Assembly (NCBI GenBank): GCA_915070235.1
Contig: CAJZFM010000001.1
Span: 1 to 25,125, forward strand
Direction of reading: 5' to 3'
From: an uncultured Capnocytophaga sp.
Lineage (GTDB): Bacteria; Bacteroidota; Bacteroidia; Flavobacteriales; Flavobacteriaceae
DNA: 25,125 bases
Translations under genes and position numbers: made by a program
Notes under the pieces: model-generated
Databases searched by the model: none
The model's input: only the letters and a program-made list of their open reading frames with translations
What the model was told of the DNA's origin: nothing
In this document: positions 2,951 to 25,125 of the stretch, piece after piece
Layout of the letters: each line of letters begins with the position of its first letter
How positions within the stretch are numbered: position 1 is the stretch's first letter

Positions 2951-2958
2951 TTCAGTAG

Positions 2959-3004: not shown

Positions 3005-3027
3005 TAACTAACAACTAATAGAATAAC

Positions 3028-4362: not shown

Positions 4363-4372
4363 ATATTTAAAT

Positions 4373-4831: not shown

Positions 4832-4857
4832 ACATTTTTTTTATTCTTTTTCACAAC

Positions 4858-4897: not shown

Positions 4898-4965
4898 TAC
4901 TATCTTATCAGGTACTTAAAAAACAATCTGTTGTTTATAATTATTAGTTAAAAAACAGTTTTTGA

Positions 4966-4996
4966 TTTGTTTTTTACAAAAAAATCATTAATTTAG
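4966..4996 (+). promoter_or_regulatory. Bacteroidota-type promoter for the secreted-protein gene
   Basis: TTTG at 4966-4969, a 19-base spacer, then TAATTTAG at 4989-4996, which differs from TAnnTTTG at one position. Spacing is the expected one, and the ATG lies 28 bases after the -7 element, giving a short leader. Confidence 0.6.
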
Positions 4997-5024
4997 CGCA
5001 CTAATAATTACAATCCTATATCCT

Positions 5025-5495: not shown

Positions 5496-5518
5496 TTCTA
5501 TAGTTTTTAAAACAAATT

Positions 5519-6988: not shown

Positions 6989-6992
6989 TAGA

Positions 6993-8738
6993 ATGAAACA
7001 CTTAGCTCACGTAAACAAATATTTTTACAAATACCGCAAACAGCTCTTCTGGGGGGTACTCATCACAATCATTGCACGTCTTTTCTCCCTTGTCATGCCC
7101 AAGGGAGTACAGTATGCATTCAAGACGATTGAGAACTATATCAACCACCCCAACCCTGACCAACCTTTGGCAAGGTCTCTGCTTTTTTGCGCGTTAATCA
7201 TCATAGGTTCGGCCTTGCTTTCGGGCTTTTTTACTTTTTGGATGCGACAGCTCATTATCAATGTCTCTCGCTATATAGAGTATGACATGAAGAATGAGAT
7301 CTACCAGAAGTACCAAATCCTATCCCAGCGTTTCTATAAGCAAAATCGCACAGGCGACCTTATGAACCGTATCAGTGAGGATGTGGGCAAGGTGCGTATG
7401 TACACAGGTCCTGCCCTGATGTATAGCGTACAGACAGCTACGCTCTTTCTCTGTAGTATCCCTCTGATGTTTTACACCTCCCCCACCTTGGCTACCTATG
7501 CGCTTTTGCCACTACCCATATTGGCCATGCTTATTTACCTTATCTCTCGTAAGATCAATAAGAAAACTCTTGAGGTACAACAGTTTCTATCGGAAATTTC
7601 CTCTTTCTCTCAGGAGGTTTTCTCTGGGATTCATACCATCAAGGCCTATGCCTTAGAGAAGGAAGCACAGAAGAATGTAGAAGCTCTTAGCGAAGAAGGC
7701 CGTAAGAAAAACCTTTCCCTACTGCGTATTCAGGCTTGTTTCTTTCCTATTATGCTGTTACTTATTGGGATTAGTATTATCTTTGTCATCTTCATCGGGG
7801 GGCGATTATATATCAATGGCCAGATAGACTCCATTGGGGTTATCACCGAATTTAGTATCTATGTGATGATGCTCACTTGGCCTGTGGCTACTGTGGGCTG
7901 GGTCAGCAATATTGTCCAACAAGCGGAGGCCTCCCAAGGGCGTATCAACGAGTTTTTACACGAGACACCTGATATAGAAAATACCAACCCTTCCCCTACT
8001 CCTATTGTTGGAGATATTCGTTTTGAGCATGTTACCTTTACCTATCCTGATACTCAGGTTACTGCCCTAAAGGACATCTCTTTCCATATCCCTAAGGGAA
8101 AAAGTATCGCTATCATAGGGCGTACAGGCTCAGGGAAATCTACCATTCTTGACCTCATTACCCGTATGTATGATGTGCAGCAAGGAGAGGTACTCATTGA
8201 CGGTAGAGATATAAAGACACTCAACCTCAACGACTTGCGCAAGTCTATCTCTGTTATTCCGCAGGATTCTTTCCTCTTCTCTGATACTATAGAGAACAAT
8301 ATCAAGTTCGGCAAGTCCGAAGCCTCCGATTTGGAAGTAATCCAAGTGGCCAAGCTCGCACAAGTACATGACAACATCATGGATTTCAAGGATAAGTATA
8401 ACACCATGCTGGGAGAGCGAGGCATATCCCTCAGTGGAGGACAGCGCCAGCGTGTATCTATTGCCAGAGCACTGCTCAAGCAGGCACAGATCTACCTCTT
8501 TGATGATTGTCTCTCAGCGGTAGATACCGATACAGAAGAGAAGATCCTCCATAACCTTTCCCAAACGGCACAGAATACCACTCGCATCATCGTCAGCCAC
8601 CGTGTATCAGTGGCTCGCAATGCCGATTATATCCTTTTCTTAGACCAAGGCTACCTCGTAGGGGAGGGTTCCCATACCGAGCTATATACTCAAAACGAAG
8701 CCTATCGCAATTATTATGATACTCAAATCATTAAGTGA
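6993..8738 (+). CDS. ABC exporter half-transporter (MdlA/MdlB/MsbA type)
   Basis: Inner-membrane export pump with one transmembrane domain fused to one ATPase domain (581 residues), working as a dimer. Six membrane helices lie in about 15-320. The ATPase domain has Walker A GRTGSGKST at 376-384, signature LSGGQ at 480-484, Walker B ending LFDD at 502-505 and the switch histidine H536. The residue after the Walker B aspartate is Asp505, not the usual Glu. This is known from the degenerate site of heterodimeric exporters such as the MdlA/YheI and BmrC side. No partner half-transporter is adjacent, so it may pair with a protein encoded elsewhere or act as a homodimer. Substrate unknown. Only 4 bases separate it from rpoN, so the two are probably one operon. 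Confidence 0.93.
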   Translation: MKHLAHVNKYFYKYRKQLFWGVLITIIARLFSLVMPKGVQYAFKTIENYINHPNPDQPLARSLLFCALIIIGSALLSGFFTFWMRQLIINVSRYIEYDMKNEIYQKYQILSQRFYKQNRTGDLMNRISEDVGKVRMYTGPALMYSVQTATLFLCSIPLMFYTSPTLATYALLPLPILAMLIYLISRKINKKTLEVQQFLSEISSFSQEVFSGIHTIKAYALEKEAQKNVEALSEEGRKKNLSLLRIQACFFPIMLLLIGISIIFVIFIGGRLYINGQIDSIGVITEFSIYVMMLTWPVATVGWVSNIVQQAEASQGRINEFLHETPDIENTNPSPTPIVGDIRFEHVTFTYPDTQVTALKDISFHIPKGKSIAIIGRTGSGKSTILDLITRMYDVQQGEVLIDGRDIKTLNLNDLRKSISVIPQDSFLFSDTIENNIKFGKSEASDLEVIQVAKLAQVHDNIMDFKDKYNTMLGERGISLSGGQRQRVSIARALLKQAQIYLFDDCLSAVDTDTEEKILHNLSQTAQNTTRIIVSHRVSVARNADYILFLDQGYLVGEGSHTELYTQNEAYRNYYDTQIIK

Positions 8739-8774
8739 TTAATGAATAGTTAGTGAAACTTAAAACTCAAAATT

Positions 8775-9320
8775 ATGAGACATACTCTTATACTCTTAGC
8801 AGCTCTTTTGAGCCTTGTAGCTTGCTCCGACGGCAAGCTCTCCCCCTCACAAGCCCACGATTTAGTAGAGGCGGCCTTGCAGGATTCCCCTATGTACGAA
8901 ACTGCTCATCTAACGCTGGGTGAGGTAAAGTACCGCACCAAAAAAGACGGGGACAAAATAAAGCAAATCAAGCAATTGGAAAGCGATGATTACCTCTCCA
9001 TAGAGGAACTCAAGGTAAAGAAAAAATGGCTCTCCAACGATAGTATTTGGGTAGTGAATATCAAGTGTACCGACAAGGCACTTCCTTATGTTACCGAACT
9101 AAAAGAGACCCGTGCCAAGGTAAAAACCCTCGAATATGTACTCTCCAATGAGGTTACTGTAGAACAAAAAAACGAGAAAAGCGCCACTATCACCGCTACT
9201 TTCCAGAAAAAAGAAACTCCTTTTAGCTTCCTAAACAAAAAGGCTGGCGGTCAGGATTTTATCCAAAAGAAATACAAAGCCAAATATCGAGAAAAAGAGG
9301 GCTGGACACTCTCTAAATAA
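8775..9320 (+). CDS. Putative lipoprotein of unknown function
   Basis: A 181-residue protein with a lipoprotein signal: MRHTLILLAALLSLVAC, with Cys17 as the lipidation site in an L-V-A-C lipobox. The mature part is lysine-rich and mostly helical or strand-forming, with no domain I recognise. Residues after the cysteine (SDGKLS) do not match the K/D-D-E surface-export signal described for Capnocytophaga lipoproteins, so a periplasm-facing position is more likely; this is inference. It lies 36 bases after the ABC exporter and 46 before a membrane-protein gene on the same strand, so co-transcription is possible. Confidence 0.8.
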   Translation: MRHTLILLAALLSLVACSDGKLSPSQAHDLVEAALQDSPMYETAHLTLGEVKYRTKKDGDKIKQIKQLESDDYLSIEELKVKKKWLSNDSIWVVNIKCTDKALPYVTELKETRAKVKTLEYVLSNEVTVEQKNEKSATITATFQKKETPFSFLNKKAGGQDFIQKKYKAKYREKEGWTLSK

Positions 9321-9366
9321 TAAGATTAGCCTCCCAACACCTAAACCCTATTACCTAATTTTACCT

Positions 9367-9816
9367 ATGAAAAAAAGCACCTCCCTTTTACTATTTCAAG
9401 CCCTACTCTCTGTAGTTTCGGGCATACTCATCACCCAGATGTCTCTCTTGGGGCGTATCGGTATTCATACCATGTATAGGCAATTCATGATCTTTCGCTC
9501 GTGGTGGAAAACAGCCTTATTGCTTTTTGTAGTACAGTGTCTCATTATTGGCCTTCTGTGGGGCATACGAAAAATGATACATCTTTCAGCGGCCAAAAAA
9601 GTCGCATGGCTACTGCTTATAGTAGGTATTGCTGGTTTTGCTGCTACCTACTGGGATTTCTCTACCACCATGCACAAGGTCATGAAAGCTAAGTTTCACT
9701 TCGGCTTCTACCTCTTTTGGATCGGCTGGTGGGTAAGTTGCTTGTACTTTATCACCATTAAGAATGAAGAACCTATAGTGAAAAATGAAGAATTAGAAGA
9801 AAAAAGCAATTACTAA
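9367..9816 (+). CDS. Small four-helix membrane protein of unknown function
   Basis: A 149-residue protein with hydrophobic segments at about 7-25, 47-67, 79-97 and 109-131, so probably four inner-membrane helices with a cytoplasmic, charged tail. The region around 36-50 (MYRQFMIFRSWWKT) and the motif FYLFWIGWWVSCLYF are rich in aromatic residues. The acidic tail after 132 is encoded by short A-rich direct repeats (AGAATGAAGAA at 9761-9771, AAAATGAAGAA at 9782-9792), which suggests that the end of the gene has been extended by repeat sequence. No family recognised. A good intrinsic terminator follows. Confidence 0.8.
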   Translation: MKKSTSLLLFQALLSVVSGILITQMSLLGRIGIHTMYRQFMIFRSWWKTALLLFVVQCLIIGLLWGIRKMIHLSAAKKVAWLLLIVGIAGFAATYWDFSTTMHKVMKAKFHFGFYLFWIGWWVSCLYFITIKNEEPIVKNEELEEKSNY

Positions 9817-9836
9817 CAAACTCAAAATTCAAAACT

Positions 9837-12040
<2,204 letters not shown>

Positions 12041-12043
12041 ATA

Positions 12044-12133
12044 ACTAATGTTCAATGATTAATGATTAATGTTCAATGACCATTGTTGTTATTGGCATTA
12101 ATCATTATTGGCATTAATCATTAATCATTATAG
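12044..12133. repeat. Intergenic GATTAAT/ATTGGC repeat array
   Basis: Between the convergent GH97 and MBL genes lie units of AATGATTAATG, TTCAATGA and ATTGGCATTAATC. Positions 12089-12123 are an exact 35-base reverse complement of 20515-20549. Part of the array overlaps the end of the MBL gene and supplies its last codons and stop. Confidence 0.85.
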
Positions 12134-12884
12134 TAAGATTATCATATGCCAAAAATACATGTGCAGGGAGTTCTTTCTGTACTTTAGCATGAAAGCCCAT
12201 GGTTTGGCTCATATGTGTGAAGAAGGTCTGGCGCGGGTGTACTTCCCTAACAATCGCCAAGGCCTCTTCTATGTTTAGGTGGGTAGGGTGAGGTGCCTTA
12301 CGTAGCGCATTGAGCACAAGAGTATCTACCTTATGGAGCTTGGAGAGTTCCGCCTCGGCTATATATTTGGCATCGGTAATATAGGCTAAGTTGCCTATAC
12401 GATAACCTAAAATAGGCAAGGTACCATGCTCCACTGCAATCGGGGTTACTTCCTTGCCAAAAAGCGTAAAAGGTATATCTGCCGTAATCTCTGTTGGAGC
12501 TACCGAAGGTGCCCCCGCATAGCGGTTCTCTGTGGCGAAGATATAGGCAAAACGTATGCGCAGTTGCTCTATCACTCTGGGTAGGCCATAGATAGGCATA
12601 TCCCCCTGCTTGAGTACAAAGGGGCGTATATCATCTAAGCCTGCGGTATGGTCGGCATGTTCATGGGTAAAAAGAATTGCTTCCAAGTGCTGCACCCTAT
12701 GGCGCAACATCTGCTGGCGAAAGTCTGGCGCACAGTCTATATTTACATTCACGCCCCCCCATGAGAGTAAAGCTGAAGTTCGCAAACGCTTATCCCGCTT
12801 GTCCCTACTACGTGCCACGGGCGTATCCATGCCTATCACAGGTACTCCTTGGGAGGTGCCTGTTCCTAAGAAGGTAAGTTTCAT
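12114..12884 (-). CDS. MBL-fold metallohydrolase (PhnP/RNase Z-like)
   Basis: Metallo-beta-lactamase-fold hydrolase of 256 residues, cytosolic, no signal peptide. The start MKLTFLGTGTSQGVPV is typical of this subgroup. The metal-binding motif THEHADH lies at 73-79 (H74, H76, D78, H79), followed by GLDDIRPF. Further likely ligands are H152 in VEHGTLP, D168 in AYITDAKY, and a late histidine in FFTHMSQTMG. The layout is nearest to the PhnP/RNase Z-like phosphodiesterases, but no phn genes are near, so the substrate is unknown. The last codons (IMIND and stop) are read from the intergenic repeat array. It is transcribed divergently from rpiB and probably from the TATTTTTG element at 12939-12946. 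Confidence 0.9.
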   Translation of the reverse strand: MKLTFLGTGTSQGVPVIGMDTPVARSRDKRDKRLRTSALLSWGGVNVNIDCAPDFRQQMLRHRVQHLEAILFTHEHADHTAGLDDIRPFVLKQGDMPIYGLPRVIEQLRIRFAYIFATENRYAGAPSVAPTEITADIPFTLFGKEVTPIAVEHGTLPILGYRIGNLAYITDAKYIAEAELSKLHKVDTLVLNALRKAPHPTHLNIEEALAIVREVHPRQTFFTHMSQTMGFHAKVQKELPAHVFLAYDNLTIMIND

Positions 12885-12908
12885 TAGGCTTATTTTTAAT
12901 TAATTAGC

Positions 12909-12924
12909 CTTCCCCTTAGGGAAG
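12909..12924. other. Short GC-rich hairpin in the MBL-gene leader
   Basis: CTTCCC (12909-12914) and GGGAAG (12919-12924) form a perfect 6-base stem with loop CTTA. It is the only GC-rich stretch in the divergent spacer and would lie in the predicted leader of the MBL gene. Function unknown. Confidence 0.4.
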
Positions 12925-12938
12925 AATTTATAGTCATG

Positions 12939-12946
12939 CAAAAATA
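12939..12946 (-). promoter_or_regulatory. Putative -7 element for the MBL-fold gene
   Basis: Read on the minus strand this is TATTTTTG, a match to TAnnTTTG, within TTGTATTTTTGCA as at 2612-2624. It lies 54 bases before the MBL start codon. No matching TTTG upstream. Confidence 0.5.
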
Positions 12947-12990
12947 CAATTTTTTCTTGATAATAGCTTTTAAAACTACTAAAAAAAATG

Positions 12991-12998
12991 TACCTTTG
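12991..12998 (+). promoter_or_regulatory. Putative -7 element for rpiB-pheS
   Basis: TACCTTTG is a full match to TAnnTTTG, followed by CA as in other cores of this window, and lies 20 bases before the rpiB ATG. The -33 TTTG is not evident. Confidence 0.6.
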
Positions 12999-13018
12999 CA
13001 CTTTAAAAACACTGACTG

Positions 13019-13441
13019 ATGAAAATTACCATTGGAAATGATCACGCAGGTACTGAATATAAGAAAGTGATTATGCAGTACTTGCTATCACAGCATTACG
13101 ATGTTACCAACGTGGGTACCGACTCCCCCGAAAGCGTGGATTATCCTGACTTTGCACACCCCGTAGGAGAGATGATTGATAAGGGAGAGGCCGACTGGGG
13201 TATTGTTATCTGTGGAAGTGGCAACGGAGTGGCCATGACCGTAAATAAGCACCCCAAAGTGCGCTGTGCCCTCTGCTGGAACAAGGAAATCGCCGCCTTG
13301 GCAAGAGAGCACAACAATGCCAATGTGATCGCTATTCCCGCCCGCTTTACAGCCGTAGAACAAGCCCTTGAGATGGTCAAGACTTTCCTTAACACTCCTT
13401 TTGAAGGTGGCCGACATGCCCGCCGCGTAGAAAAAATTTAA
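13019..13441 (+). CDS. rpiB: Ribose-5-phosphate isomerase B
   Basis: Interconverts ribose 5-phosphate and ribulose 5-phosphate in the non-oxidative pentose phosphate pathway; cytosolic RpiB/LacAB-fold enzyme. The 140 residues are the usual length. Visible active-site parts are the N-terminal IGNDHAG (D8, H9), Cys65 in ICGSGNG (equivalent to the catalytic Cys66 of E. coli RpiB), and His98 in REHNNANV. The C-terminal FEGGRHARRVEKI fits the phosphate-binding arginines. It starts 20 bases after a TACCTTTG core, so the leader is very short. pheS follows after 21 bases and is probably in the same operon. Confidence 0.94.
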   Translation: MKITIGNDHAGTEYKKVIMQYLLSQHYDVTNVGTDSPESVDYPDFAHPVGEMIDKGEADWGIVICGSGNGVAMTVNKHPKVRCALCWNKEIAALAREHNNANVIAIPARFTAVEQALEMVKTFLNTPFEGGRHARRVEKI

Positions 13442-13462
13442 CCACATAATATTGTTATTCCT

Positions 13463-14482
13463 ATGATAGATAAAATCAAAGCACATATTGCCAAGGTGGA
13501 AGCCTTTGCCACTGAAAAAAAAGAAGAATTAGAACAATTCCGCTTGGAATATCTCGGTAAAAAGGGATTGCTCAATGACCTCTTTGCCCAATTCAAAGAA
13601 GTTCCTAAAGAGGAAAAAAAGGAATTTGGACAGATTATTAACGAACTCAAGAGCAAGGCTGAAGCAAAAATCAACGAACTCAAAGAGAAACTTGGTGGAC
13701 AAGCTACAGCTACACCTGCTTATAACGACCTTACTCGCCCCGCTTTTCCTATGGAGATCGGAAGCCGTCACCCTGTGTCGCTAATCAAAAATAAGATTAT
13801 TGAGATCTTTGCCAACATTGGCTTTAGCATAGCCGAAGGGCCTGAAATAGAGGATGATTGGCACAACTTCACTGCCCTAAACCTCCCCGAATATCACCCC
13901 GCGAGGGATATGCAGGATACTTTCTTTATCCAGACTCGCCCCGATATTCTTCTACATACCCATACAAGCTCAGTAGAGGTGCGCTATATGGAGCAAAACC
14001 AACCACCTATACGTATTATCGCCCCGGGTCGTGTGTATCGCAATGAGGATATATCGGCTCGCTCTCACTGCCTTTTCCACCAAATAGAAGGCTTGTATAT
14101 TGACACCAATGTTTCCTTCGCTGACCTCAAACAAACGCTTCTTTACTTTACCAAGGAGATGTTCGGTAAGTCCAAAATACGTCTTAGACCCTCTTATTTC
14201 CCTTTCACTGAACCCAGTGCAGAAATGGATATCTATTGGGGGTTGAACAACGAAATTGACTACCGCATCACCAAGGGTACAGGCTGGCTTGAGATCATGG
14301 GCTGTGGTATGACCGACCCCAATGTACTAAAGAACTGCAATATAGACCCTGAAAAATACTCAGGTTTTGCTTTCGGTATTGGGCTGGAACGTGTAGCCAT
14401 GCTTCTGTATCAGATAGGAGACATACGCGCTTTTTATGAGAATGATGTGCGCTTCTTAGAGCAATTCAAAAGCTCTATATAA
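13463..14482 (+). CDS. pheS: Phenylalanine-tRNA ligase alpha subunit
   Basis: Catalytic subunit of the alpha2-beta2 phenylalanyl-tRNA synthetase; charges tRNA-Phe in the cytosol. The 339 residues are normal. Residues 1-90 form the N-terminal coiled coil that binds tRNA (charged, K/E-rich). The class II core follows, starting near [19 protein letters not shown]. Motif 2 is near 190-200 ([14 protein letters not shown]), with FHQIEGL after it. Motif 3 is [13 protein letters not shown], with GIGLER at 305-310. The beta-subunit gene pheT is not in the window, as is common outside operons of the E. coli type. It probably shares the rpiB promoter. Confidence 0.96.
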
Positions 14483-14513
14483 GCCTGCTTTACTACGTGA
14501 AAAACAAACAATT

Positions 14514-15260
14514 ATGTTCAGACATCAAGGAAAAAAGCGTTCTGCCAAGAATAACTTACAAATAGCGGTCGTACTCTCCTTCGTGGCGGGTATGGTCAAT
14601 GTGGTGGGCTTCCTTTTCTTAAGTAGGCTCACGACCAATGTTACTGGGCATTTCGCTTTTTTCATTCATGATATGTCTATAGCGGAGTTTTGGAAGGGTA
14701 CTATCTATCTGTGCTATATCCTTTCTTTCCTCTGCGGTTCTTTTACTTCGGGCTGGCTGATTGAGGACGCCAACTATCACAAAAGGCAAAATAAGTATTT
14801 CAGACCTACCATCTTAGAATGTTTAACTCTTGGTTCTGTTATCCTTTTCAATACTCTATGGGAGCATTTCCCTCATGAGCTAACCACCTTTATGCTGCTC
14901 TATGCCATGGGATTGCAGAACTCTTTTGTGACCAAAATCTCCAACGCCACCGTTCGCACCACTCACCTAACGGGCTTGTTTACCGATCTGGGTATTGAAC
15001 TTTCCCAATTATTCTATATCAGAAGAAACAATTATCTACAACAGGAGAATAATATAAAAAATAGCATCAGACTACGGCTATTTATCGTTGTTTTTTTCTT
15101 CTTAGGCGGCTTTTTTGCAGGATTCGCTTTCGTAAAACTTTCCTTGGGAATCAAGACACTTTTCTTTGCTATCGCTATCCTATTGACTGGCCTATATTAT
15201 GATGATGTACGTTTTAGATACCTCACCGAAAGACGAAAGCACCGAAAACCACACCATTAA
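14514..15260 (+). CDS. YoaK/DUF1275 family membrane protein
   Basis: Integral inner-membrane protein of 248 residues with about six hydrophobic helices. Family features are the first helix FVAGMVNVVGFLFL followed by TTNVTGHFAFF, and the second-half repeat YAMGLQNSFVTKISNATVRTTHLTGLFTDLGIEL. These N-V-T-G-H and R-T-T-H-L-T-G motifs mark DUF1275; its function is not established and transport is only suspected. The N-terminus is basic (MFRHQGKKRSAKN) and the C-terminus ends RKHRKPHH, both probably cytoplasmic. It starts 31 bases after pheS and may be the last gene of the rpiB-pheS operon. Confidence 0.9.
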   Translation: MFRHQGKKRSAKNNLQIAVVLSFVAGMVNVVGFLFLSRLTTNVTGHFAFFIHDMSIAEFWKGTIYLCYILSFLCGSFTSGWLIEDANYHKRQNKYFRPTILECLTLGSVILFNTLWEHFPHELTTFMLLYAMGLQNSFVTKISNATVRTTHLTGLFTDLGIELSQLFYIRRNNYLQQENNIKNSIRLRLFIVVFFFLGGFFAGFAFVKLSLGIKTLFFAIAILLTGLYYDDVRFRYLTERRKHRKPHH

Positions 15261-15270
15261 TGTATGCCAT

Positions 15271-15306
15271 TTTGTCACTTTTCAATCTTTGGCAGTACTT
15301 TTGCTA
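15271..15306 (+). promoter_or_regulatory. Overlapping sigma-54-like and Bacteroidota-type promoter before grpE
   Basis: Two readings share the same bases. TTTG at 15271-15274, a 21-base spacer and TACTTTTG at 15296-15303 fit the Bacteroidota primary promoter. TTGGCA at 15289-15294 and TTGCT at 15301-15305 give GG (15291-15292), 10 bases, then GC (15303-15304), as in the sigma-54 consensus TTGGCACG-N4-TTGCW with two mismatches at the CG. The grpE ATG lies 36 bases after the GC. Confidence 0.55.
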
Positions 15307-15340
15307 TGAATAAAAATTAGTAATACAAAATAATACACCC

Positions 15341-16063
15341 ATGAATACAGGACACAATCATAACGAAGGCGACCTATACGCTGATGACATTCATGACGCT
15401 GAATTTCAAGATGCTGAAATCATAGATGAGGAAATTCACGACAACCCTACCCCTGCCCAAGAGGCTTCCTATGTACAAGAAGAACCCCAAGTGGTAGAGG
15501 CTCAAGAACAAACAAACGAAGAGACTGAAAATCAAGATTATAACACCCAAGCTGAATTTGCTGAAAAACAAGCCGAAGCAGAAAGACAGGCCAGCGATGC
15601 AGCTCAGGCCGACGAGGCTATCTCTATCCTTGAGACCGAATTACATAAGGAAAAAGACAAGTTCATGCGCCTCTTCGCTGAGTTTGAAAACTATAAGCGA
15701 CGCACTGCCAAAGAACGACAAGATCTACTCAAGTCAGCAGGACAAGATGTCATACAAGCTATGCTCCCTGTCTTAGATGACTTTGACCGTGCCTTAGTGG
15801 AAATCTCCAAGAGTGAGGACGAAAACTTGCTCCGTGGTGTGGAGCTTATTCATAGCAAGCTCCTCAGTACCCTCCGTTCCAAAGGTTTGGAAGAAATCCC
15901 TGTGGCTGCCTCCGATACCTTTGATAGCGACATACACGAGGCGCTTACCCAAACTGTTGCTCCTACTCCTGAACTCAAAGGAAAAATCATTGACGTGGTA
16001 GAAAAAGGATACAAATTGGGAGAAAAAATTATCCGCTACCCCAAAGTGGTAGTAGGACAATAG
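15341..16063 (+). CDS. grpE: Nucleotide-exchange factor GrpE
   Basis: Dimeric co-chaperone that releases ADP from DnaK; cytosolic. The family core begins near residue 90 with the long dimerisation helix (ISILETELHKEKDKFMRLFAEFENYKRRTAKER). It continues with the four-helix bundle (AMLPVLDDFDRALV) and ends with the beta-wing carrying IDVVEKGYKLGEKIIRYPKVVVGQ. At 240 residues it is about 40 longer than E. coli GrpE because of an acidic, glutamine-rich, disordered-looking N-terminus (about 1-85). The ATG at 15341 follows a promoter directly and no better internal start is obvious. dnaJ starts 21 bases after the stop, so the two form an operon. dnaK is not in the window. Confidence 0.95.
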   Translation: MNTGHNHNEGDLYADDIHDAEFQDAEIIDEEIHDNPTPAQEASYVQEEPQVVEAQEQTNEETENQDYNTQAEFAEKQAEAERQASDAAQADEAISILETELHKEKDKFMRLFAEFENYKRRTAKERQDLLKSAGQDVIQAMLPVLDDFDRALVEISKSEDENLLRGVELIHSKLLSTLRSKGLEEIPVAASDTFDSDIHEALTQTVAPTPELKGKIIDVVEKGYKLGEKIIRYPKVVVGQ

Positions 16064-16084
16064 GCTTTCTTAGTGATTGAATAA

Positions 16085-17200
16085 ATGAAAAAAGATTATT
16101 ATGAAATTTTAGGCGTTAGCAAGACTGCTACTGCCGCTGAAATAAAAAAGGCCTACCGAAAAAAAGCATTGGAATACCACCCCGATAAAAACCCTGGGGA
16201 CAAAGAGGCCGAAGAAAAATTCAAAGAGGCTGCTCAGGCCTACGAAATACTGAGCGACGAACAGAAACGAGCACAATACGACCAATTCGGACACGCAGCC
16301 TTCGAAGGGGGCGGTGGCAGTTATAGCTCTATGGAGGATATCTTCCGTAACTTCGGAGATATCTTCGGCGGACACTTTAGCGGCTTCGGTGGCTTTGGTG
16401 GCTTCGGCGGAGGAAATTCTCGCTCTTATAGAATAAAAGGGGGAGATCTACGTATCCGCGTGAAACTTACCTTGGCAGACATCGTAACAGGTACTGAAAA
16501 GAAAGTAAAAGTACTTCGTAAGGTAAAGGCCGAAGGTGCCACTTATAAGACTTGTAACACCTGCCATGGCAACGGAAGTATCGTCCGAGAGGTCAATACT
16601 ATGCTCGGCCGTATGCAATCTTCCTCCCCCTGCCCTACCTGTGGCGGAAGCGGTGAGGTGATTGACAAAAAGCCTGATGGTGCCGATGCCCAGGGTCTCA
16701 AATCGGTAGAGGAAACTGTTACTATCAAGATTCCTGCAGGGGTAGTAGAAGGTATGCAGATGAAGGTGCCTAACAAAGGGAACGAAGCCCCTGGCAACAA
16801 TAGTATCCCTGGTGACCTATTAGTGCTTATTGAGGAAATAGAACACGAAACTCTCAAGCGCGAGGGGGAAAACCTCCACTTAGACCTATATATAAGCATG
16901 CCTGAAGCCGTCTTGGGTACTTCCAAGGATATAGAAACAGCTACAGGAAAGGTGCGTATTAAGCTCGAAGAGGGAATCCAATCAGGAAAAATCCTACGCC
17001 TCAAGGGCAAAGGAATACCTAACCTCAACGGATATGGGGCTGGAGACTTGCTTGTACATGTGAATGTATGGACTCCTAAAACCCTTACCAAAGAGCAGAA
17101 AAACTTCTTCCAAAAGATGATGGAAGATGACAACTTTACCCCACAACCCGACAAATCAGAAAAGAGCTTCTTTGAAAAAGTCAAAGATATGTTCTCCTGA
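16085..17200 (+). CDS. dnaJ: Chaperone DnaJ, reduced zinc-domain form
   Basis: Hsp40 co-chaperone that delivers unfolded clients to DnaK and stimulates its ATPase. The J domain covers 1-70 with HPD at 32-34. A Gly/Phe linker follows at about 72-115 ([10 protein letters not shown]). The cysteine-rich region has only two CxxCxGxG motifs, C157-G164 (CNTCHGNG) and C183-G190 (CPTCGGSG), where E. coli DnaJ has four. The two can form one zinc site. The C-terminal substrate-binding domains follow ([14 protein letters not shown]...). The reading frame is open throughout (371 residues, normal length), so this is not a frameshift. I recall the same two-motif form in other flavobacterial DnaJ proteins. 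Second gene of the grpE-dnaJ operon. Confidence 0.95.
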
Positions 17201-17256
17201 CTGACCCGTTGGCTATGGGCGAAGTTATCATAAGAAAAAATCTCTAATACTATCAT

Positions 17257-19164
17257 ATGATGAGAAAAATTTTACTAATCCTTGCTTTGATTATGACTTA
17301 TAATACGCAAGCACAACAACCTCTCACTCCTGAGAAATTATGGGAATTGCATCGGGTAAGTAGCATCGGGCTAACACCTGATAAAAAACAAGTCTTACTG
17401 AGTGTTACCACTCCCAATGTGGCTGAAAATTCCTTCAAAAAGGAGTTTTACAAATTGGACATCGGTGGAGGCAAGCTCATTCCTATTACCCAAGAACAGT
17501 TGGACAACCTCACCATTAAGTACAATGCGGACAAAACGCTTAAGCTCATACATAAGGAAGTAAAACTCCGCCCTGTCTTAGGTAAGGACTTCTATAAGGA
17601 ATTGGACAAATCCACAGGAAAAGTGTATGAGGGCTTAGACCATCGTCATTGGGACAAGTGGAACGAAGGGGCTTACAACCATGTGTTTATTGAAAAAATA
17701 TCCAATGGTACCCAAACCGATATTATGCAAGGCTTGCCTTATTACTGCCCTCAGATGCCCTCCGGCGGAGAGGAAGACTACATATGGAGCAACGATGGTA
17801 AAAAGGTTCTCTATGTAACCAAAGCCAAAGTAGGTACTGATTATGTGGTAAGTACCAATACCGACATCTATCAGTATGATATAGAAAGTAAGAAAACAAC
17901 CAACCTCACCGAGGGTATGATGGGCTATGATACCCACCCTTCTTTTAGCAAAGACGGTGTTTTGGCTTGGCTAAGCATGAAGGAGGACGGCAACGAAGCG
18001 GATAAGAATGACCTATATATCCTCCACGAGGGTAATAGGATCAACCTTACTGCCTCTTGGGACAATACCGTTTTTAGCTACATTTGGAGCAATGACGGAA
18101 AGAAAATCTACTTTACCGCGGCTACCCAAGGTACCCAGCAACTCTTTGAAATAGAGCCTTTTGCTAAGAACCCTACTCCTAAGCAACTCACCAAAGGGGT
18201 CTTTGATATAAGTGATATCTTAGGCCAATCAGGCGACCTCTTAGTGGTTTCTCGTAATGATATGAATAGAGCCACCGAGATATATACTGTCAATCTCAAA
18301 GGACGTAAAGCGCCCTTGGACGTAAAACAACTCTCTCATATCAACGATGACCTCTATAAGAACATAGCCAAGTGCCCTGTAAAAGAGCGTACTATAAAAA
18401 CCACCGATGGCAAGGATATGCTCGCTTGGGTTATCTATCCACCCGATTTCTCTCCTAAAAAGAAATACCCTACCCTACTCTATTGCGAGGGGGGACCTCA
18501 ATCGGCACTAACTCAGTTCTACAGTTTCCGCTGGAACCTCCAACTGATGGCCTCTCAGGGTTATATTGTCATCGCTCCTAACCGCCGTGGTATGCCAGGA
18601 CACGGAGTGGCTTGGAATGCCGAAATTAGTGGCGACTGGGGCGGACAGGTGATGAAAGATTATTTAGCTGCCATTGACGATATTGCCAAAGAGCCTTATG
18701 TGGATACTTCTCGCTTGGGTGCTGTTGGGGCTAGCTATGGAGGATATTCTGTATATTACTTGGCTGGTATCCACAACAAGCGTTTTAAGACCTTTATTGC
18801 CCACTGTGGGGTATTCAATACCAAGAGTATGTATGGTACCACTGAAGAGATCTTCTTCAACCGACATGAGTTCGGAGGAGATTATTGGGATAAAGGTAAT
18901 GCCACAGCTCAAAAGGCCGTTACCGAGTTTAACCCTATAGAGAAAGTTGAGGCATGGGATACACCTATTCTCATCATTCATGGCGGCAAGGACTATCGTG
19001 TCCCTGAAGAACAAGGCTTCCAAGCCTTCACCGCTGCCCAGCTCAGAGGAATCAAGAGCAAGCTCCTCTACTTCCCCGACGAAAACCACTGGGTACTACA
19101 ACCTCAGAATGCCCTTCTTTGGCAACGTACCTTCTTTGGCTGGCTCAAAGAAACCCTCAAATAA
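17257..19164 (+). CDS. S9 family prolyl-oligopeptidase-type serine peptidase
   Basis: Exported peptidase of the prolyl oligopeptidase/dipeptidyl peptidase IV clan, 635 residues. A signal peptide (MMRKILLILALIMTYNTQAQ, cut after about residue 20) sends it to the periplasm. An N-terminal beta-propeller covers about 25-380, with repeated WSNDGKK blades. The alpha/beta-hydrolase domain from about 400 has Ser493 in GASYGG, Asp579 in GGKDYRVP and His611 in DENHW, the full catalytic triad in the expected order. Two adjacent ATGs (17257 and 17260) are both possible starts. It may trim dipeptides or act as an acylaminoacyl peptidase; this cannot be told from sequence alone. It stands alone, 56 bases after dnaJ, with a strong terminator behind. 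Confidence 0.93.
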   Translation: MMRKILLILALIMTYNTQAQQPLTPEKLWELHRVSSIGLTPDKKQVLLSVTTPNVAENSFKKEFYKLDIGGGKLIPITQEQLDNLTIKYNADKTLKLIHKEVKLRPVLGKDFYKELDKSTGKVYEGLDHRHWDKWNEGAYNHVFIEKISNGTQTDIMQGLPYYCPQMPSGGEEDYIWSNDGKKVLYVTKAKVGTDYVVSTNTDIYQYDIESKKTTNLTEGMMGYDTHPSFSKDGVLAWLSMKEDGNEADKNDLYILHEGNRINLTASWDNTVFSYIWSNDGKKIYFTAATQGTQQLFEIEPFAKNPTPKQLTKGVFDISDILGQSGDLLVVSRNDMNRATEIYTVNLKGRKAPLDVKQLSHINDDLYKNIAKCPVKERTIKTTDGKDMLAWVIYPPDFSPKKKYPTLLYCEGGPQSALTQFYSFRWNLQLMASQGYIVIAPNRRGMPGHGVAWNAEISGDWGGQVMKDYLAAIDDIAKEPYVDTSRLGAVGASYGGYSVYYLAGIHNKRFKTFIAHCGVFNTKSMYGTTEEIFFNRHEFGGDYWDKGNATAQKAVTEFNPIEKVEAWDTPILIIHGGKDYRVPEEQGFQAFTAAQLRGIKSKLLYFPDENHWVLQPQNALLWQRTFFGWLKETLK

Positions 19165-19198
19165 GTATTCAATAGTTTGCATGGTATAATTGTAATGA

Positions 19199-19232
19199 AA
19201 GAAGCCAAAATCCGTGGATTTTGGCTTCTTCT
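19199..19232. terminator. Bidirectional intrinsic terminator
   Basis: AAGAAGCCAAAATC (19199-19212) and GATTTTGGCTTCTT (19217-19230) form a perfect 14-base stem with loop CGTG. T-rich sequence follows on both strands. It sits between the convergent S9 peptidase and CBS-domain genes and can serve both. Confidence 0.85.
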
Positions 19233-19255
19233 TGTCTCCTATGATAAGGCGATTC

Positions 19256-19672
19256 TTAGTACTGCTCTAACAGATACTTGATAAGATCGGTAGTGGTAAG
19301 CATACCTACCAAGTTTCCATTTTCAGTAACAGGCAAGGCGTGGAAAGTTTGCCCTGCAAGTATCTCTGCGGCTTCCTTGATAGTAGTATCAGGAGAGATA
19401 GAAAGCGGTACCTTGGCCATTACTTGTGGAATGGTGAACATATCATACACTACACTATCCACATGCTTTTCGTCATCAGAAAGGTCAGCAAAACTGATAC
19501 GCAATAAGTCAGTAAGGCTTAGTACCCCTACGAGCTTATGTCCTTCCACTACAGGAATATGACGAATGTGGTGCTTTTTGAACAATGCCTCTGCCTCATA
19601 CAAGGTCTTAGTAGGGTCTATTGTTACTATGTCCTTGGACATAATCTGGGAAACGGGAACTCTTTGTTTCAT
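19256..19672 (-). CDS. CBS-domain pair protein
   Basis: A small cytosolic protein (138 residues) made only of two CBS domains, about 5-60 (VSQIMSKDIVTIDPTKTLYEAEALFKKHHIRHIPVVEGHKLVGVLSLTDLL) and 78-138 (MAKVPLSISPDTTIKEAAEILAGQTFHALPVTENGNLVGMLTTTDLIKYL). CBS pairs bind adenosine nucleotides such as AMP, ATP or S-adenosylmethionine and sense energy state. No enzymatic or membrane domain is attached, so its partner is unknown. It has its own promoter (TAACTTTG, minus strand) and is followed by the bidirectional terminator. Confidence 0.92.
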   Translation of the reverse strand: MKQRVPVSQIMSKDIVTIDPTKTLYEAEALFKKHHIRHIPVVEGHKLVGVLSLTDLLRISFADLSDDEKHVDSVVYDMFTIPQVMAKVPLSISPDTTIKEAAEILAGQTFHALPVTENGNLVGMLTTTDLIKYLLEQY

Positions 19673-19709
19673 ATCTTTATAATATTTATTAATAGCTTCT
19701 TTTGCACTA

Positions 19710-19743
19710 CAAAGTTAATAAAAAATATTTGAATTATAGCAAA
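19710..19743 (-). promoter_or_regulatory. Promoter for the CBS-domain gene
   Basis: On the minus strand, TAACTTTG (19710-19717) is a full match to TAnnTTTG, 37 bases before the start codon. TTTG (19740-19743) lies 22 bases upstream of it, slightly longer than the usual spacing. Confidence 0.6.
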
Positions 19744-19790
19744 AAATCCATTTTTATTTTCCGTTTTTTCTTCGTATATTTGCATCTTGT

Positions 19791-19854
19791 AGGTAAAAAA
19801 TAAAGGATAAAAAGTAAAACCCATTACCTCTTTCTTACCCTCTACTTTTTACCT
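19791..19854 (-). terminator. Putative stem-loop terminator after pcm
   Basis: AGGTAAAAAATA (19791-19802) and TACTTTTTACCT (19843-19854) pair with one mismatch. AAAAAGTA (19809-19816) offers an alternative 8-base pairing with 19843-19850. The right arm overlaps the pcm stop codon. T-rich sequence lies inside and after the structure on the minus strand. GC content is low, so strength is doubtful. Confidence 0.4.
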
Positions 19855-20511
19855 AATTTTCGATTGTACATTCTCCAGCATAGGTACAAACCCAAAGGTT
19901 CCATATTCCTCTTTGTTAAACTCATTGGCCGAAAGGCGTGTAAAAACGGTCATAATCTGCTCGCCTTTCCCTATAGGGATTACTAGTCGCCCTCCGATCT
20001 TCAGTTGTACCAGCAATTCCATAGGTACCTCTGGCGCCCCCGCAGTTACCAAAATACGGTCATAAGGTGCTTGTTCTATATAACCCTTATAGCCGTCCCC
20101 AAAAATCATTTTTTTAGGCATATAACCCATTCGCTCCAATAGAAGTTTGGTCTTCTTGAAGAGCTCTTGTTGCCTTTCTATCGTATAGAGCTCTACCTTG
20201 AGTAGCACCAATACGGCCGACTGATAACCACTTCCTGTACCTATCTCAAGCACTTTCTGTCTTGGTTGTACTTGTAACAACTCCGTTTGGAATGCTACTG
20301 TATGAGGGCGAGAAATCGTCTGATCTGCTCCTATAGGAAAGGCTATATCCTGATAGGCTCTTTCTTCAAAAACACTATCTAAAAACAAATGTCGGGGAAT
20401 GGTTCTAATGGCTTGTAATACCTTTTCATCAGAGATCGGGTACTGCGGACGCTCTGAAAGCTGTCGCGCTAAAAGATTTCGCATCCCTTGATGTCTTGCT
20501 GTATCCTTCAT
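19849..20511 (-). CDS. pcm: Protein-L-isoaspartate O-methyltransferase
   Basis: Repair enzyme that methylates isoaspartyl residues in aged proteins using S-adenosylmethionine; class I methyltransferase fold, 220 residues. Visible family motifs are the pre-motif QTISRPH at 64-70, motif I VLEIGTGSGY at 87-96 that binds S-adenosylmethionine, FGDGYKGY as the post-II region, and YDRILVTAGAPEVPMELLVQLKIGGRLVIPIG. The ATG at 20511 lies directly at the edge of an intergenic repeat array; no promoter consensus is visible there, so it may be expressed by read-through from the AsmA-like gene 115 bases upstream. No signal peptide, so cytosolic. Confidence 0.94.
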   Translation of the reverse strand: MKDTARHQGMRNLLARQLSERPQYPISDEKVLQAIRTIPRHLFLDSVFEERAYQDIAFPIGADQTISRPHTVAFQTELLQVQPRQKVLEIGTGSGYQSAVLVLLKVELYTIERQQELFKKTKLLLERMGYMPKKMIFGDGYKGYIEQAPYDRILVTAGAPEVPMELLVQLKIGGRLVIPIGKGEQIMTVFTRLSANEFNKEEYGTFGFVPMLENVQSKIR

Positions 20512-20622
20512 TTCTAATGATTAATGCCAATAATGATTAATGCCAATAATGATCAATGATTAATAGCCATTAAATCACTGACTATTAATCATTGAACATT
20601 AATCATTAATCATTAATTATTG
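20512..20622. repeat. Intergenic GATTAATGCCAATAAT repeat array
   Basis: The whole spacer between the AsmA-like gene and pcm consists of GATTAATGCCAATAAT, GATCAATG, ATTGAACATT and ATTAATC units. Positions 20515-20549 are an exact 35-base reverse complement of 12089-12123, and a second block near 20590-20613 matches the other part of the 12.05 kb array in inverted orientation. Very low GC, non-coding. Confidence 0.85.
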
Positions 20623-20626
20623 ATTT

Positions 20627-23227
20627 TTATTCTTTCTTCTTAAACAGCCCGTCCAAGAGGTTGTTTACTGCTTTTTTAGCTTGGTCTTTAGGAGCTTGTT
20701 GTTGGGTTTTGGTGGTATCGGCAGGGTTAGCTTGTGTTTTACCACCTATGATCTTGCCCAAAGCATCTGTGGCTTTGTTCATAGCTTCTCCTCCTATCTT
20801 CTCGGTAATCTTGTTAGTTACCTCATTGGTTACCTTATCCATTACCTTGTCTGTTAGCTGATTGGCTTGTGCTTTGGCTACCTGTAGGGCAAGATTATTT
20901 ACCACCTGCTTCATATCGGTAGAGACTTGTGGTTTGGTAAAGTTACCTCCCATATTCACATTCACTGGAATATCCCCCAACTTCTGCTGCTCGGTAGCGG
21001 TGAGCTTAGCCAATAGAGCCGAAGCATCTGGCCCGAGCATCTTAGCAGGTACATTGAAAGTCAGCTTGTAGTCCATTGTTTGGTCAAAACCATGGGTTCC
21101 TGCTACATTGATAGTACTACCATTCCACTTGATAGCAAAAGGTTTTACTACCACACGACCATTTTCAAAGGTTACATTGGCCTTAAGATCTTTAAGATTG
21201 AGCTTAGAAAGGTTCAGTTGAGTGAACTGTGAATCCAAAGCTGAAACTAATGGAGATGTACCTTTCACATGGCTATCCAATAGGGAGGCAGAAAGGCTTC
21301 CTGAGAGCGAATTAATATCGGGAGTGAGCTCTGGAGTGAGCTTTCCTGTTACATTAATCTTAGAGCTAAAGAATCCTTCTACCACCTTGGCAATAGGCAT
21401 GATCTTCTTAAGCATTTCTATCTGAGAGAAAGACTCCGTAACATTGAGCTTGGTCATATCTAAATCTACAGCAAAAGTGGAGGTATCTCCCTTGGTGGAT
21501 ACGCTTCCTGTGACGGCTGTTTTTCCTCCAAATATATCAGTCTGCAAGTTCTGTAGGCTTACTTTTTCGTCCTTGATAATAAGCTTACCTGAGACATTAG
21601 AAAGATTGAGCTTGTCATAAAGTACAGTCTTTGCTTTGGCATCGAGGGTACAATCTAAGAAAGCAGGAATTTTGATAGAAGCTACTGTGGTAGAGGTATT
21701 TGTAGTGGCAGGCTTGGTCTCAGCGGGTTTTTCTTCCTCTTGCTTAGGGGTTTCCGCTGGCGTATCGGTTTGCATAAAGTCACCCACATCTATATGGTTG
21801 GAGGCCAAGGAGAAGTTCCCTTTGAGCACTTCATTGCGCAAAGTAAAGCCATAGAAGTTTTCCAAAGTTCCCTTGATATTAAAGTCGGTCTTACCTGTCT
21901 TAGCATCCAGCTCGGTAAGCTCTATCTTAGCGTTATTGAAGGAAAGCCCTGCTTTGTTGATATGGAAAGGCTGTAGGAAGCCTGCCCCAGAATAGACAAA
22001 CTTTTCCAAAGAGGCATGTCCAGAGTTACGAATACGTTCGTAGGCTTGTTTTTCTACCGACGCCATATCAAAGGAGGTTGTTACATCGGCCTTGAGGATT
22101 CCCTTTAGGTCTAAATCCATCTGTACAGGATAGGCTTTTTGGATATTCTCCAAGTTGATAGTCCCTTTGAGGTCTGCATCCACAAGCATATTGCCTGTAA
22201 GGTTCCTTAAAAGGGCTTTTGCAGAGAAAGCATCTTGGTCTATCGTAAAAGCAAAACGATTGATATTCACATAAGTATCTTCCAATTTCTCAGTATCGTT
22301 GCCTATCTTGACATCTATATCAATATTCTTAACCGACTTAGGCAGAGACGGATACTTGAAAGACGCATTATTGGAGAGCATACGAATATCCAACTTAGGA
22401 ATAGTCGTAGGGGTATATTTGCCCGCTACCTTTCCGTTGATCGTAAATTCGCCTGTTGTCTGTACCCCCTCTATACTCTTGGTATAAGCGGCAGGAATTA
22501 GGTCTAAACAGTTCTTAAAGGTGGTCTTAGGCGTCTTAAAACTCAGGTCATAGAGCTGGCCATCGTCTAAGAGTTGTACAAAGCCATCAAAATTAAGCTC
22601 TAAGTCATTTAGCTTTAGCGTATTGTCCTTTAGGGTATATTTTTGCTGATTAAGGTCTATACCCAAGATAGCATCAAGGGTCACCACATTGTTGCGCAAA
22701 AAGGCCGTACCATCAGAAGCAAAAGACAATTTAAGCGATGTAGTAGTCTCTAAATCAAGCACTTGATTTGCAAAGTTTCCTTTTCCTTTGTGATAAAGAC
22801 TATCTACTATTACACTTATTTTAGAGCCATCTTCCTTAAAAGTAAAGCGCAGATTATCAATACTATACTCTTTTAAGTCAAGAGAGAAATTATTAGGCTC
22901 CTCACTCTCTGGAGTATCCGAGGTGCTTTTAGCAATGTCAAAGTTACCTTTTCCTGCTTCATTTATACGCACATTCACCACTGCATCGGCTATGGAAAAA
23001 CCAAGGAGTTTGTAAGGTTCATCGTCTTTCTTAAAGAGAATGTCCTTAAGATTCACCTTTGCAGAGAAATTACCCACATAGGCCAAGGTATCTCCCTCAA
23101 AAGGGGCGTTGTTAATCACCTTCAGTCCGCCCACTTCCACGGTTGCATTGGGGAAGTTCTTGAACACACTGAGGGAGAAGTCCGTAAAGCTGATTTGTGC
23201 ATCCACACTTTCATTCACTTTTTCCAT
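20627..23227 (-). CDS. AsmA-like protein, N-terminus lost at an inter-species join
   Basis: Body of a Bacteroidota AsmA-family protein, one of the long beta-rich proteins held to the inner membrane by one N-terminal helix and linked in other bacteria to lipid or outer-membrane homeostasis. The readable 866 residues begin MEKVNESVDAQISFTDFSLSVFKNFPNATVEVGGLKV, which in complete homologues follows a membrane helix. That helix, roughly 30-40 residues, is missing. An acidic Pro/Thr linker lies at about 483-510 (AETPKQEEEKPAETKPATT). The AsmA C-terminal domain follows, ending with an amphipathic repeat (DKVMDKVTNEVTNKITEKIGG) and KKKE. The ATG, AGGAG site and TATAAT upstream have the character of the foreign flank, so this start is not the native one. 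Read as a 5'-truncated gene. Confidence 0.85.
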   Translation of the reverse strand: MEKVNESVDAQISFTDFSLSVFKNFPNATVEVGGLKVINNAPFEGDTLAYVGNFSAKVNLKDILFKKDDEPYKLLGFSIADAVVNVRINEAGKGNFDIAKSTSDTPESEEPNNFSLDLKEYSIDNLRFTFKEDGSKISVIVDSLYHKGKGNFANQVLDLETTTSLKLSFASDGTAFLRNNVVTLDAILGIDLNQQKYTLKDNTLKLNDLELNFDGFVQLLDDGQLYDLSFKTPKTTFKNCLDLIPAAYTKSIEGVQTTGEFTINGKVAGKYTPTTIPKLDIRMLSNNASFKYPSLPKSVKNIDIDVKIGNDTEKLEDTYVNINRFAFTIDQDAFSAKALLRNLTGNMLVDADLKGTINLENIQKAYPVQMDLDLKGILKADVTTSFDMASVEKQAYERIRNSGHASLEKFVYSGAGFLQPFHINKAGLSFNNAKIELTELDAKTGKTDFNIKGTLENFYGFTLRNEVLKGNFSLASNHIDVGDFMQTDTPAETPKQEEEKPAETKPATTNTSTTVASIKIPAFLDCTLDAKAKTVLYDKLNLSNVSGKLIIKDEKVSLQNLQTDIFGGKTAVTGSVSTKGDTSTFAVDLDMTKLNVTESFSQIEMLKKIMPIAKVVEGFFSSKINVTGKLTPELTPDINSLSGSLSASLLDSHVKGTSPLVSALDSQFTQLNLSKLNLKDLKANVTFENGRVVVKPFAIKWNGSTINVAGTHGFDQTMDYKLTFNVPAKMLGPDASALLAKLTATEQQKLGDIPVNVNMGGNFTKPQVSTDMKQVVNNLALQVAKAQANQLTDKVMDKVTNEVTNKITEKIGGEAMNKATDALGKIIGGKTQANPADTTKTQQQAPKDQAKKAVNNLLDGLFKKKE

Positions 23228-23233
23228 AATTTT
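23205..23233. other. Probable junction between two genomes
   Basis: Base composition, promoter type, ribosome-site type and codon choice all change here. To the left (the AsmA body) the sequence is flavobacterial. To the right are an AGGAG site, an extended -10, a U-tract terminator and an AT-rich typA. The exact base cannot be fixed because ATGGAAAAAGTG could fit both sides, which suggests a short shared stretch at the join. Confidence 0.8.
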
Positions 23234-23238
23234 CTCCT
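23234..23238 (-). promoter_or_regulatory. Strong Shine-Dalgarno site, foreign in type
   Basis: On the minus strand AAGAGGAGAAAATTATG places AGGAG 6 bases before the ATG at 23227. No other gene in the flavobacterial part has such a site; their leaders are A/T-rich. Confidence 0.8.
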
Positions 23239-23256
23239 CTTATAAATATTTTTACC

Positions 23257-23265
23257 ATTATACCA
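23257..23265 (-). promoter_or_regulatory. Extended -10 promoter (sigma-70 type)
   Basis: On the minus strand the sequence TGGTATAAT is a perfect extended -10. No good TTGACA lies 17 bases upstream. It follows the typA terminator and would drive whatever gene natively followed typA. Confidence 0.65.
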
Positions 23266-23266
23266 C

Positions 23267-23305
23267 AAAAAAAGAGTTATCACTTTAAATTTTGTAATAA
23301 CTCTT
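23267..23305 (-). terminator. Intrinsic terminator of typA
   Basis: On the minus strand AAGAGTTATTAC (complement of 23294-23305) pairs with GTGATAACTCTT (complement of 23272-23283), 12 bases with one G-U pair and a 10-base loop, followed by a run of T. It starts 11 bases after the typA stop. Confidence 0.85.
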
Positions 23306-23316
23306 CAATTAAATTT

Positions 23317-25125
23317 TTATTTATTAGTAGCAGACCAGTTTTTTCTTCTGTCTCCTTCTTTTAAAATTTTCTTTCTAAGTCTGATATTTGTAGGAGTAAC
23401 TTCTACAAGTTCATCTTCAGCAATGTAATCAAGTGCTTGTTCCAAAGTAAATTTTCTTGGAGTTGCGAGTTTAACTGCATCATCAGAACCAGCAGCTCTC
23501 ATATTTGTTAATTTTTTAGTTTTACAAACATTTACAACTAAATCATTTTCTCTATTATGTTCTCCAACTATCATTCCTTCATACACAGGAACGCCTGGGT
23601 CTAAGAATAAAGTTCCTCTATCTTGCAGGTTATTTAAAGCATAAGGAACAGTAACTCCTGGTTCAGTAGCTATTAAAACTCCCTTATTTCTTGTAGGAAT
23701 ATCTCCTTTATATTCTTCATAATCAAAGAATGAATGATTTAAAATTCCAGTTCCCTTAGTATCAGTTAAAAATTCATTTCTAAAACCAATAAGCCCTCTT
23801 GCAGGAACTTTAAATTCAAGTCTTGTATATCCATCTTGACCTGGAACCATAGAAACCATTTCTGCTTTTCTAACTCCCATCTTTTCAATTACAGTTCCTG
23901 TAAAACTATCATCAACATCAATTAAAGCAAGTTCAATAGGTTCTAATTTTTTTCCATCTTTTTCTTTAAATAAAACTCTTGGTTTAGAAACTTGCACTTC
24001 AAAACCTTCTCTTCTCATATTTTCAAGTAATATTGAAAGTTGAAGTTCTCCTCTTCCTTTTACAATAAATGAATCAGGTGAATCAGTTGCTTCTACTCTC
24101 ATACTAACATTTGTTTGAATTTCTTTTTGTAATCTATCCCAAATATGTCTTGAAGTTACAAATTTTCCTTCTTTTCCAACAAATGGAGAATCATTTACCA
24201 TAAATGTCATAGCAAGTGTTGGTTCATCAATATCAATTAGAGGTAATGCAACAGGCTCATTTATATCTGCCAATGTTTCTCCAATATCTATATCATCAAT
24301 ACCAGCAACACAAACTATATCTCCTGCTTCTGCTTCTTCTATTTCAACTCTTTTTAAACCTTCATAACCATATAGAACAGAAATTTTTCCTTTTACTTGT
24401 TTTCCATCTCTTTTTATTAACATTACATCTTGGTTTCTTTTTAAAGTTCCATTATGTATTCTTCCAACTGCTAATTTTCCGACATAGTTATCATAAGCAA
24501 TATTTGTTATTAAGAATTGAGCTGGTTTTGTAACATCTCCATCAGGGTCTTGAACATGCTCTAATATTGTTTCAAATAATGGTTGCATATCAGTATTTTC
24601 ATCTGTCAATTCTTTTCTAGCAAAACCTGCTTTTCCTGATGCATAAACTACAGGAAATTCAAGTTGATATTCATTGGCATTTAATTCTATAAATAAATCA
24701 TAAACCATATATAAAACATCTTCTGGTCTAGCATTAGGTTTATCAACTTTATTTACTACAACTATTGGTCTATGCCCTTGTTCTAATGCTTTTTTCAAAA
24801 CATATTTTGTTTGAGGCATAGGTCCTTCAAAAGCATCTACAAGTAAAAGAACAGAATCAACCATCTTCATAATTCTTTGTACTTCTCCACCAAAGTCAGC
24901 ATGTCCTGGTGTATCAACTATATTAATTTTATAGTCTTTATATCTAGCAGAAGCATTTTTAGAGAAAATAGTAATTCCTCTTTCTCTTTCAATATCATCT
25001 GAGTCCATAACTCTTTCTTCAACTTTTTCAAGTTCATGAGTTTTAAAAACTCCACCTTGTCTTAACAAGCAGTCTACAAGTGTAGTTTTTCCGTGGTCAA
25101 CGTGAGCAATAATTGCTATGTTTTT
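23317..25125 (-). CDS. typA: Ribosome-associated GTPase TypA/BipA, 5' end beyond the window
   Basis: Translational GTPase that binds the ribosome and helps 50S assembly under stress. The frame is open to the window edge: 602 codons are visible, beginning [25 protein letters not shown], and about 3-4 residues plus the start codon are missing. Full TypA is about 605 residues. GTPase motifs: G1 AHVDHGKT (25084-25107), G2 RERGITI, G3 [13 protein letters not shown]4 NKVDKP and G5 SGKAG. Domains II and III and the TypA-specific C-terminal domain ([19 protein letters not shown]...) follow and end [12 protein letters not shown] is near 30% and Arg is mostly AGA, unlike the rest of the window. It is not the expected flavobacterial typA, and looks Fusobacteriota-like. 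Confidence 0.95.

Follow-up and report, generated by a model that had tools for sequence, protein, structure and literature searches.

A probable chimeric contig joining Capnocytophaga and Fusobacterium DNA within an asmA-like gene

At one end of a 25,125-nucleotide (nt) stretch assigned to an uncultured Capnocytophaga sp. (assembly GCA_915070235.1, contig CAJZFM010000001.1, positions 1 to 25,125; hereafter the window), a gene for an AsmA-like protein lies behind a leader with a ribosome-binding site and next to typA, which encodes the translational GTPase TypA/BipA. Does this arrangement exist in a bacterium, or was it made by joining two genomes? A sequence-only reading had proposed a chimera of a flavobacterial and a Fusobacteriota-like bacterium, and the comparisons described here support that proposal, as the best relatives of the two sides belong to different phyla. 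Judging from these comparisons, we put at roughly 0.93 the probability that the window is a chimeric contig, joined at a shared k-mer or microhomology during assembly or library preparation and without biological function.

Results

The typA side is a slice of Fusobacterium chromosome

Megablast of positions 22500-25125 against a plasmid collection returned a single record, Fusobacterium vincentii NZ_CP084075.1, which matched with 93.7% identity over 23236-25125; local alignment of this segment to the record gave 1890 columns with 120 mismatches and 0 gaps. The match ends at the composition break described below and covers the intergenic hairpin and TATAAT element along with typA, indicating that a slice of chromosome is present and not the gene alone. 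PLSDB lists the record (F. vincentii SB055, 2.1 Mb) under the title plasmid pSB055A; judging by its size and by typA, it is probably the chromosome.

The window TypA scored 941.1 bits against TIGR01394 (cut-off 757.3), and named TypA matches near the top of the listing were from Fusobacterium, with Capnocytophaga appearing in none of the titles of the best 80 of 592 TypA loci. Relatives begin MKIKNIAI and the window copy KNIAI; typA thus runs off the window edge, as the sequence-only reading had noted, and the foreign part extends up to that edge, three codons short of where typA begins. Across 61 Fusobacteriaceae genomes, no alignment of the typA region extended past query position 1817, so none reaches the junction; the nearest of the genomes compared (G018) is 90% identical in typA.

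The other side resembles Capnocytophaga and carries a 5'-truncated asmA

Searching the two genes separately, as had been advised, gave a different genus for the AsmA-like protein. Its homologues are 87-95% identical, and those named among the matches listed are from C. gingivalis and uncultured Capnocytophaga sp. The whole window protein aligned with its closest listed homologue, P0001 (902 amino acids (aa), 95%), and with P0060 from C. gingivalis (896 aa, 90%). It matched no Pfam family at E <= 1e-3 and scored 26.7 bits against the NCBIfam AsmA model (cut-off 412); P0001 matches PF05170 (54.5 versus 29.8 bits), and the kinship of the window protein to AsmA therefore follows from its identity to P0001.

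We compared translation starts in P0001-P0067, taken from the best 120 of 3371 homologues (8000 candidates scored), leaving out two fragments (P0073 and P0078; 98 and 94% identical, 508 and 481 aa) and rows at or below 69% identity. In 58 of these 67 closest listed homologues, the first methionine of the window protein corresponds to position 35, where it follows a strongly hydrophobic helix, and in 55 of the 58 it stands in the context KEKIMEKVNES; eight others start at that methionine and one starts further in. The best 19-residue hydropathy near the N-terminus is 0.63 in the window protein versus 3.01-3.23 in the 58 homologues. The window AsmA lacks codons 1-34, including the N-terminal membrane helix, whose absence had been read from the window and is borne out by the intact helix in these relatives.

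Composition and codon use change at the break

The guanine-plus-cytosine (GC) fraction per 100 nt falls from 0.49-0.51 (steps 23050 and 23100) to 0.23 (step 23200). The GC content of typA is 0.31 overall and 0.10 at third codon positions (GC3), versus 0.35-0.49 and 0.32-0.52, respectively, in 20 other genes tallied. The most deviant tetranucleotide stretch tested was 23236-25125, at a distance of 0.54 from the rest; 1.8-kb stretches starting before 21400 had a mean distance of 0.24 (standard deviation 0.03), with a maximum of 0.32 at 10351. Arginine is encoded by AGA at 33 of 33 positions in typA, at 0 of 10 in asmA and at 37 of 262 summed over the remaining 20 genes, some small genes being richer (e.g. 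7 of 15 in a DUF1275-like gene). Both the composition drop and the shift to AGA that first drew attention to this locus are thus confirmed.

The same holds for the AGGAG ribosome site: among 20 starts other than that of typA, only that of asmA has a Shine-Dalgarno-like word (AGGAG, GGAGG or AGGAA) within 20 nt 5' of the start, and the site serves well as a marker. A change in promoter type had also been claimed. However, TAnnTTTG lies within 150 nt of just 5 of 20 starts and TGnTATAAT is also found 5' of the CBS gene; we regard this contrast as weak and dropped it as evidence.

The two parents probably overlap at the apparent asmA start

Coming from the left, Capnocytophaga-like sequence reaches 23236; coming from the right, Fusobacterium-like sequence reaches 23218. 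The join therefore lies within these 19 nt and not at 23205, where it was initially placed. The stretch that fits both sides, GAGAAAATTATGGAAAAAG, encodes E-K-I-M-E-K in Capnocytophaga (AsmA codons 32-37), and in Fusobacterium it forms the tail of a ribosome site and the start of a gene. Read by eye, the nine bases 5' of the ATG (GAG AAA ATT) give E-K-I, which most relatives share. The agreement ends beyond them, where the window has GAG and then TAA in this frame; P0002 and P0059, for example, have K and I there. The parents probably overlap by about 19 nt, or by 21 nt if the preceding lysine codon is AAG, which accounts for 215 of 393 lysine codons in seven Capnocytophaga-side genes.

These observations amend three earlier statements. 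An ATG does sit at the join, but it is not solely a start, since it doubles as Capnocytophaga codon 35 and as the start of a Fusobacterium gene. A short stretch compatible with both genomes is indeed probable, but the T in the version first proposed, GAAAAAGT, belongs to the Capnocytophaga side only. Finally, typA and asmA are not fused in frame, as 89 nt separate them.

Which Fusobacterium gene supplied the start was suggested by ATGGAAAAAG (window 23218-23247), which matches F. vincentii at 28 of 30 positions about 535 bp beyond the typA-region match. A PatB-type gene (TIGR04350, 408.7 bits; cut-off 340) begins here in F. vincentii, the match covering its leader and first codons, and we consider that patB probably lies directly after typA in the Fusobacterium parent of the window.

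For genomes of an assumed 2.8 Mb and of 2.1 Mb, a first-order Markov model of both compositions predicts that chance alone yields about 210 shared 19-mers, 16 shared 21-mers and 3.5e-5 shared 31-mers. With some 210 shared 19-mers expected, a small-k assembly graph could cross between such genomes at many places.

Features of the window

The features are collected in Table 1. The hairpin 3' of typA was read by eye, and an automated terminator scan restricted to loops of 3-8 nt did not list it; nor did a consensus promoter scan list the -10-like element.

Table 1. Coordinates of the window features discussed in the text.
Feature	Position	Strand	Remarks
Presumed Capnocytophaga chromosome segment (lon, ffh, rpoN, GH97, pheS, dnaJ, others)	1..23217	.	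No comparable composition break; families identified for selected genes; genus from asmA only
AsmA-like gene, 5' truncated	20627..23227	-	Homologues of 87-95% identity; apparent ATG is Met35 of relatives
Junction zone, 19 nt, GAGAAAATTATGGAAAAAG	23218..23236	-	Compatible with both parents; one base differs from F. vincentii
AGGAG ribosome-binding site, Fusobacterium type	23234..23238	-	Same leader before F. vincentii PatB-type gene
TGGTATAAT, extended -10-like element	23257..23265	-	Offset -38; ATGGTATAAT at the corresponding F. vincentii position 3' of typA
Terminator-like hairpin 3' of typA, then T run	23266..23305	-	Arms 23297-23305 and 23272-23280; also in F. vincentii
typA (TypA/BipA translational GTPase), Fusobacterium	23317..25125	-	First 3 codons absent at window edge

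Elsewhere in the window, a 98-aa open reading frame (ORF) at 2654-2950, between lon and ffh, lies in a low-GC stretch (0.32 at 2501-3000). It has no Pfam match, and two TAnnTTTG motifs stand 39 and 47 nt before its ATG.

Discussion

We propose that about 23.2 kb of Capnocytophaga chromosome was joined artificially to about 1.9 kb of chromosome from a Fusobacterium close to F. vincentii. At the join the two genomes would agree over roughly 19 (at most 21) bases; in the Fusobacterium strain these would comprise a ribosome site and the opening codons of a gene, probably patB immediately following typA. Either an assembler using a small k or a template switch during amplification or library preparation may have crossed between the genomes at these bases; a template-switching chimera would look identical here to one made in assembly. 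The combination of promoter, ribosome site and helix-less AsmA would then be a by-product without biological function.

Several observations weigh against parts of this proposal. Within the overlap, one base of the window is different in F. vincentii, where typA and patB are also separated by a DUF1706 gene that the window's parent apparently lacks. In the five nearest genomes we found no patB immediately downstream of typA; the DNA there differs. In G018, likewise, typA is followed by different DNA, and the PatB-type gene sits on another contig with a different leader. Leaders of this kind are common in these AT-rich genomes, as 8 of the 61 Fusobacteriaceae genomes have short matches to it (query 1880-1904; identity 76-93%, E from 5.6e-5 to 1e-3) at sites away from typA; the case for patB therefore comes chiefly from its position close to typA in the F. 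vincentii record. The PatB-type leaders of seven other genomes (L122, L123/L126, L127-L131) do not match that of the window. The DUF1706 gene of F. vincentii (NZ_CP084075.1, 1476448-1476975) contains an in-frame TGA, and its two pieces match consecutive parts of PF08020.

At the junction itself, the shared length of 19 or 21 nt is deduced, because Capnocytophaga upstream of codon 35 is known from proteins only. A 17-nt repeat of the junction zone (88%) inside typA (23949-23965) also counts against the proposal, although it looks like chance. On the AsmA side, P0001, despite being the closest listed homologue, reads KEKVMEAVNES at this point, and the eight homologues that begin exactly at Met35 (P0004, P0015, P0020, P0040, P0054, P0061, P0063 and P0066) include two, P0061 and P0066, on contigs of 27.7 and 18.1 kb. 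Their starts may come from contigs that end there, from the way starts were called or from additional breaks at this site.

A genuine transfer, which we regard as improbable, would have Fusobacterium DNA recombined illegitimately at the microhomology of about 19 nt inside asmA of an oral Capnocytophaga. The incoming DNA would have taken the place of the asmA promoter and codons 1-34, so that a cytosolic AsmA fragment would be driven by a Fusobacterium promoter, with a foreign typA beside it. The window sequence runs unbroken across the join, a microhomology of this length is also enough for illegitimate recombination, and Capnocytophaga and Fusobacterium both live in the mouth. However, the foreign DNA is an unremarkable piece of chromosome that continues to the window edge, its identity to Fusobacterium and Fusobacterium-like codon use show no sign of adaptation, and asmA, the gene at the break, is damaged. 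From 20627 to the end of the window there is no ORF longer than 110 aa besides asmA and typA, smaller overlapping ORFs not having been searched. No mobility genes (among ORFs above 110 aa), att sites or long terminal repeats were seen at the join, the repeats within 22700-24000 all being short.

Nor was the junction found in plasmid or phage records, a result of little weight, since the collections searched covered neither Capnocytophaga genomes nor metagenomes. Positions 1-23235 gave one 44-bp megablast match among plasmids, and tblastn of AsmA in plasmids one Bacteroides match at 28.8%. Among phages, megablast found a single match (72%) that covered 6% of the query and fell in the GH97 region. 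A viral contig scan for the Capnocytophaga side returned no match, and patterns from both sides had 0 matches in viral contigs, a collection unlikely to hold them. Among the literature matches listed, no title concerned horizontal transfer between Capnocytophaga and Fusobacterium.

That the window is instead a single genome, with typA an old, foreign-looking gene native to the Capnocytophaga lineage and Met35 the true asmA start, is very hard to credit: the eight Met35-starting homologues agree with it, but five of them lie on contigs of 2.6-3.4 kb, little longer than the gene, the 58 others carry 34 extra residues with a strong helix, and the intergenic DNA and leader, beyond typA itself, resemble Fusobacterium.

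If a transfer had taken place, a helix-less AsmA would be expressed from a Fusobacterium promoter with a Shine-Dalgarno site, beside a foreign typA. As a probable chimera, the contig is instead useful as an error flag. Without such a flag, it would point to a transfer between phyla, a soluble variant of AsmA and a flavobacterial gene led by a Shine-Dalgarno site. It also offers a simple check for such joins, namely that an apparent start is an internal codon of full-length relatives and that its leader belongs to another gene of the second parent.

Each side of the favoured chimera has a close counterpart. The typA region of F. vincentii NZ_CP084075.1 (1470551-1480440) carries the same typA, hairpin, TGGTATAAT element and leader, with the aligned 1890 bp at 93.7% identity; it differs in having the DUF1706 gene, with its in-frame TGA, between typA and patB. 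The Capnocytophaga AsmA-like proteins P0001 and P0060 are closely alike to the window protein and differ in keeping residues 1-34 and the membrane helix. As a class, the window resembles the chimeric metagenome contigs described in an excerpted account (PMC7299287), in which shared k-mers lead to contigs mixing several genomes: here too, two genomes appear to be combined in one contig at shared k-mers. The joins in that excerpt arise mainly among related species, whereas the one proposed here would rest on a chance match of about 19-21 nt across phyla.

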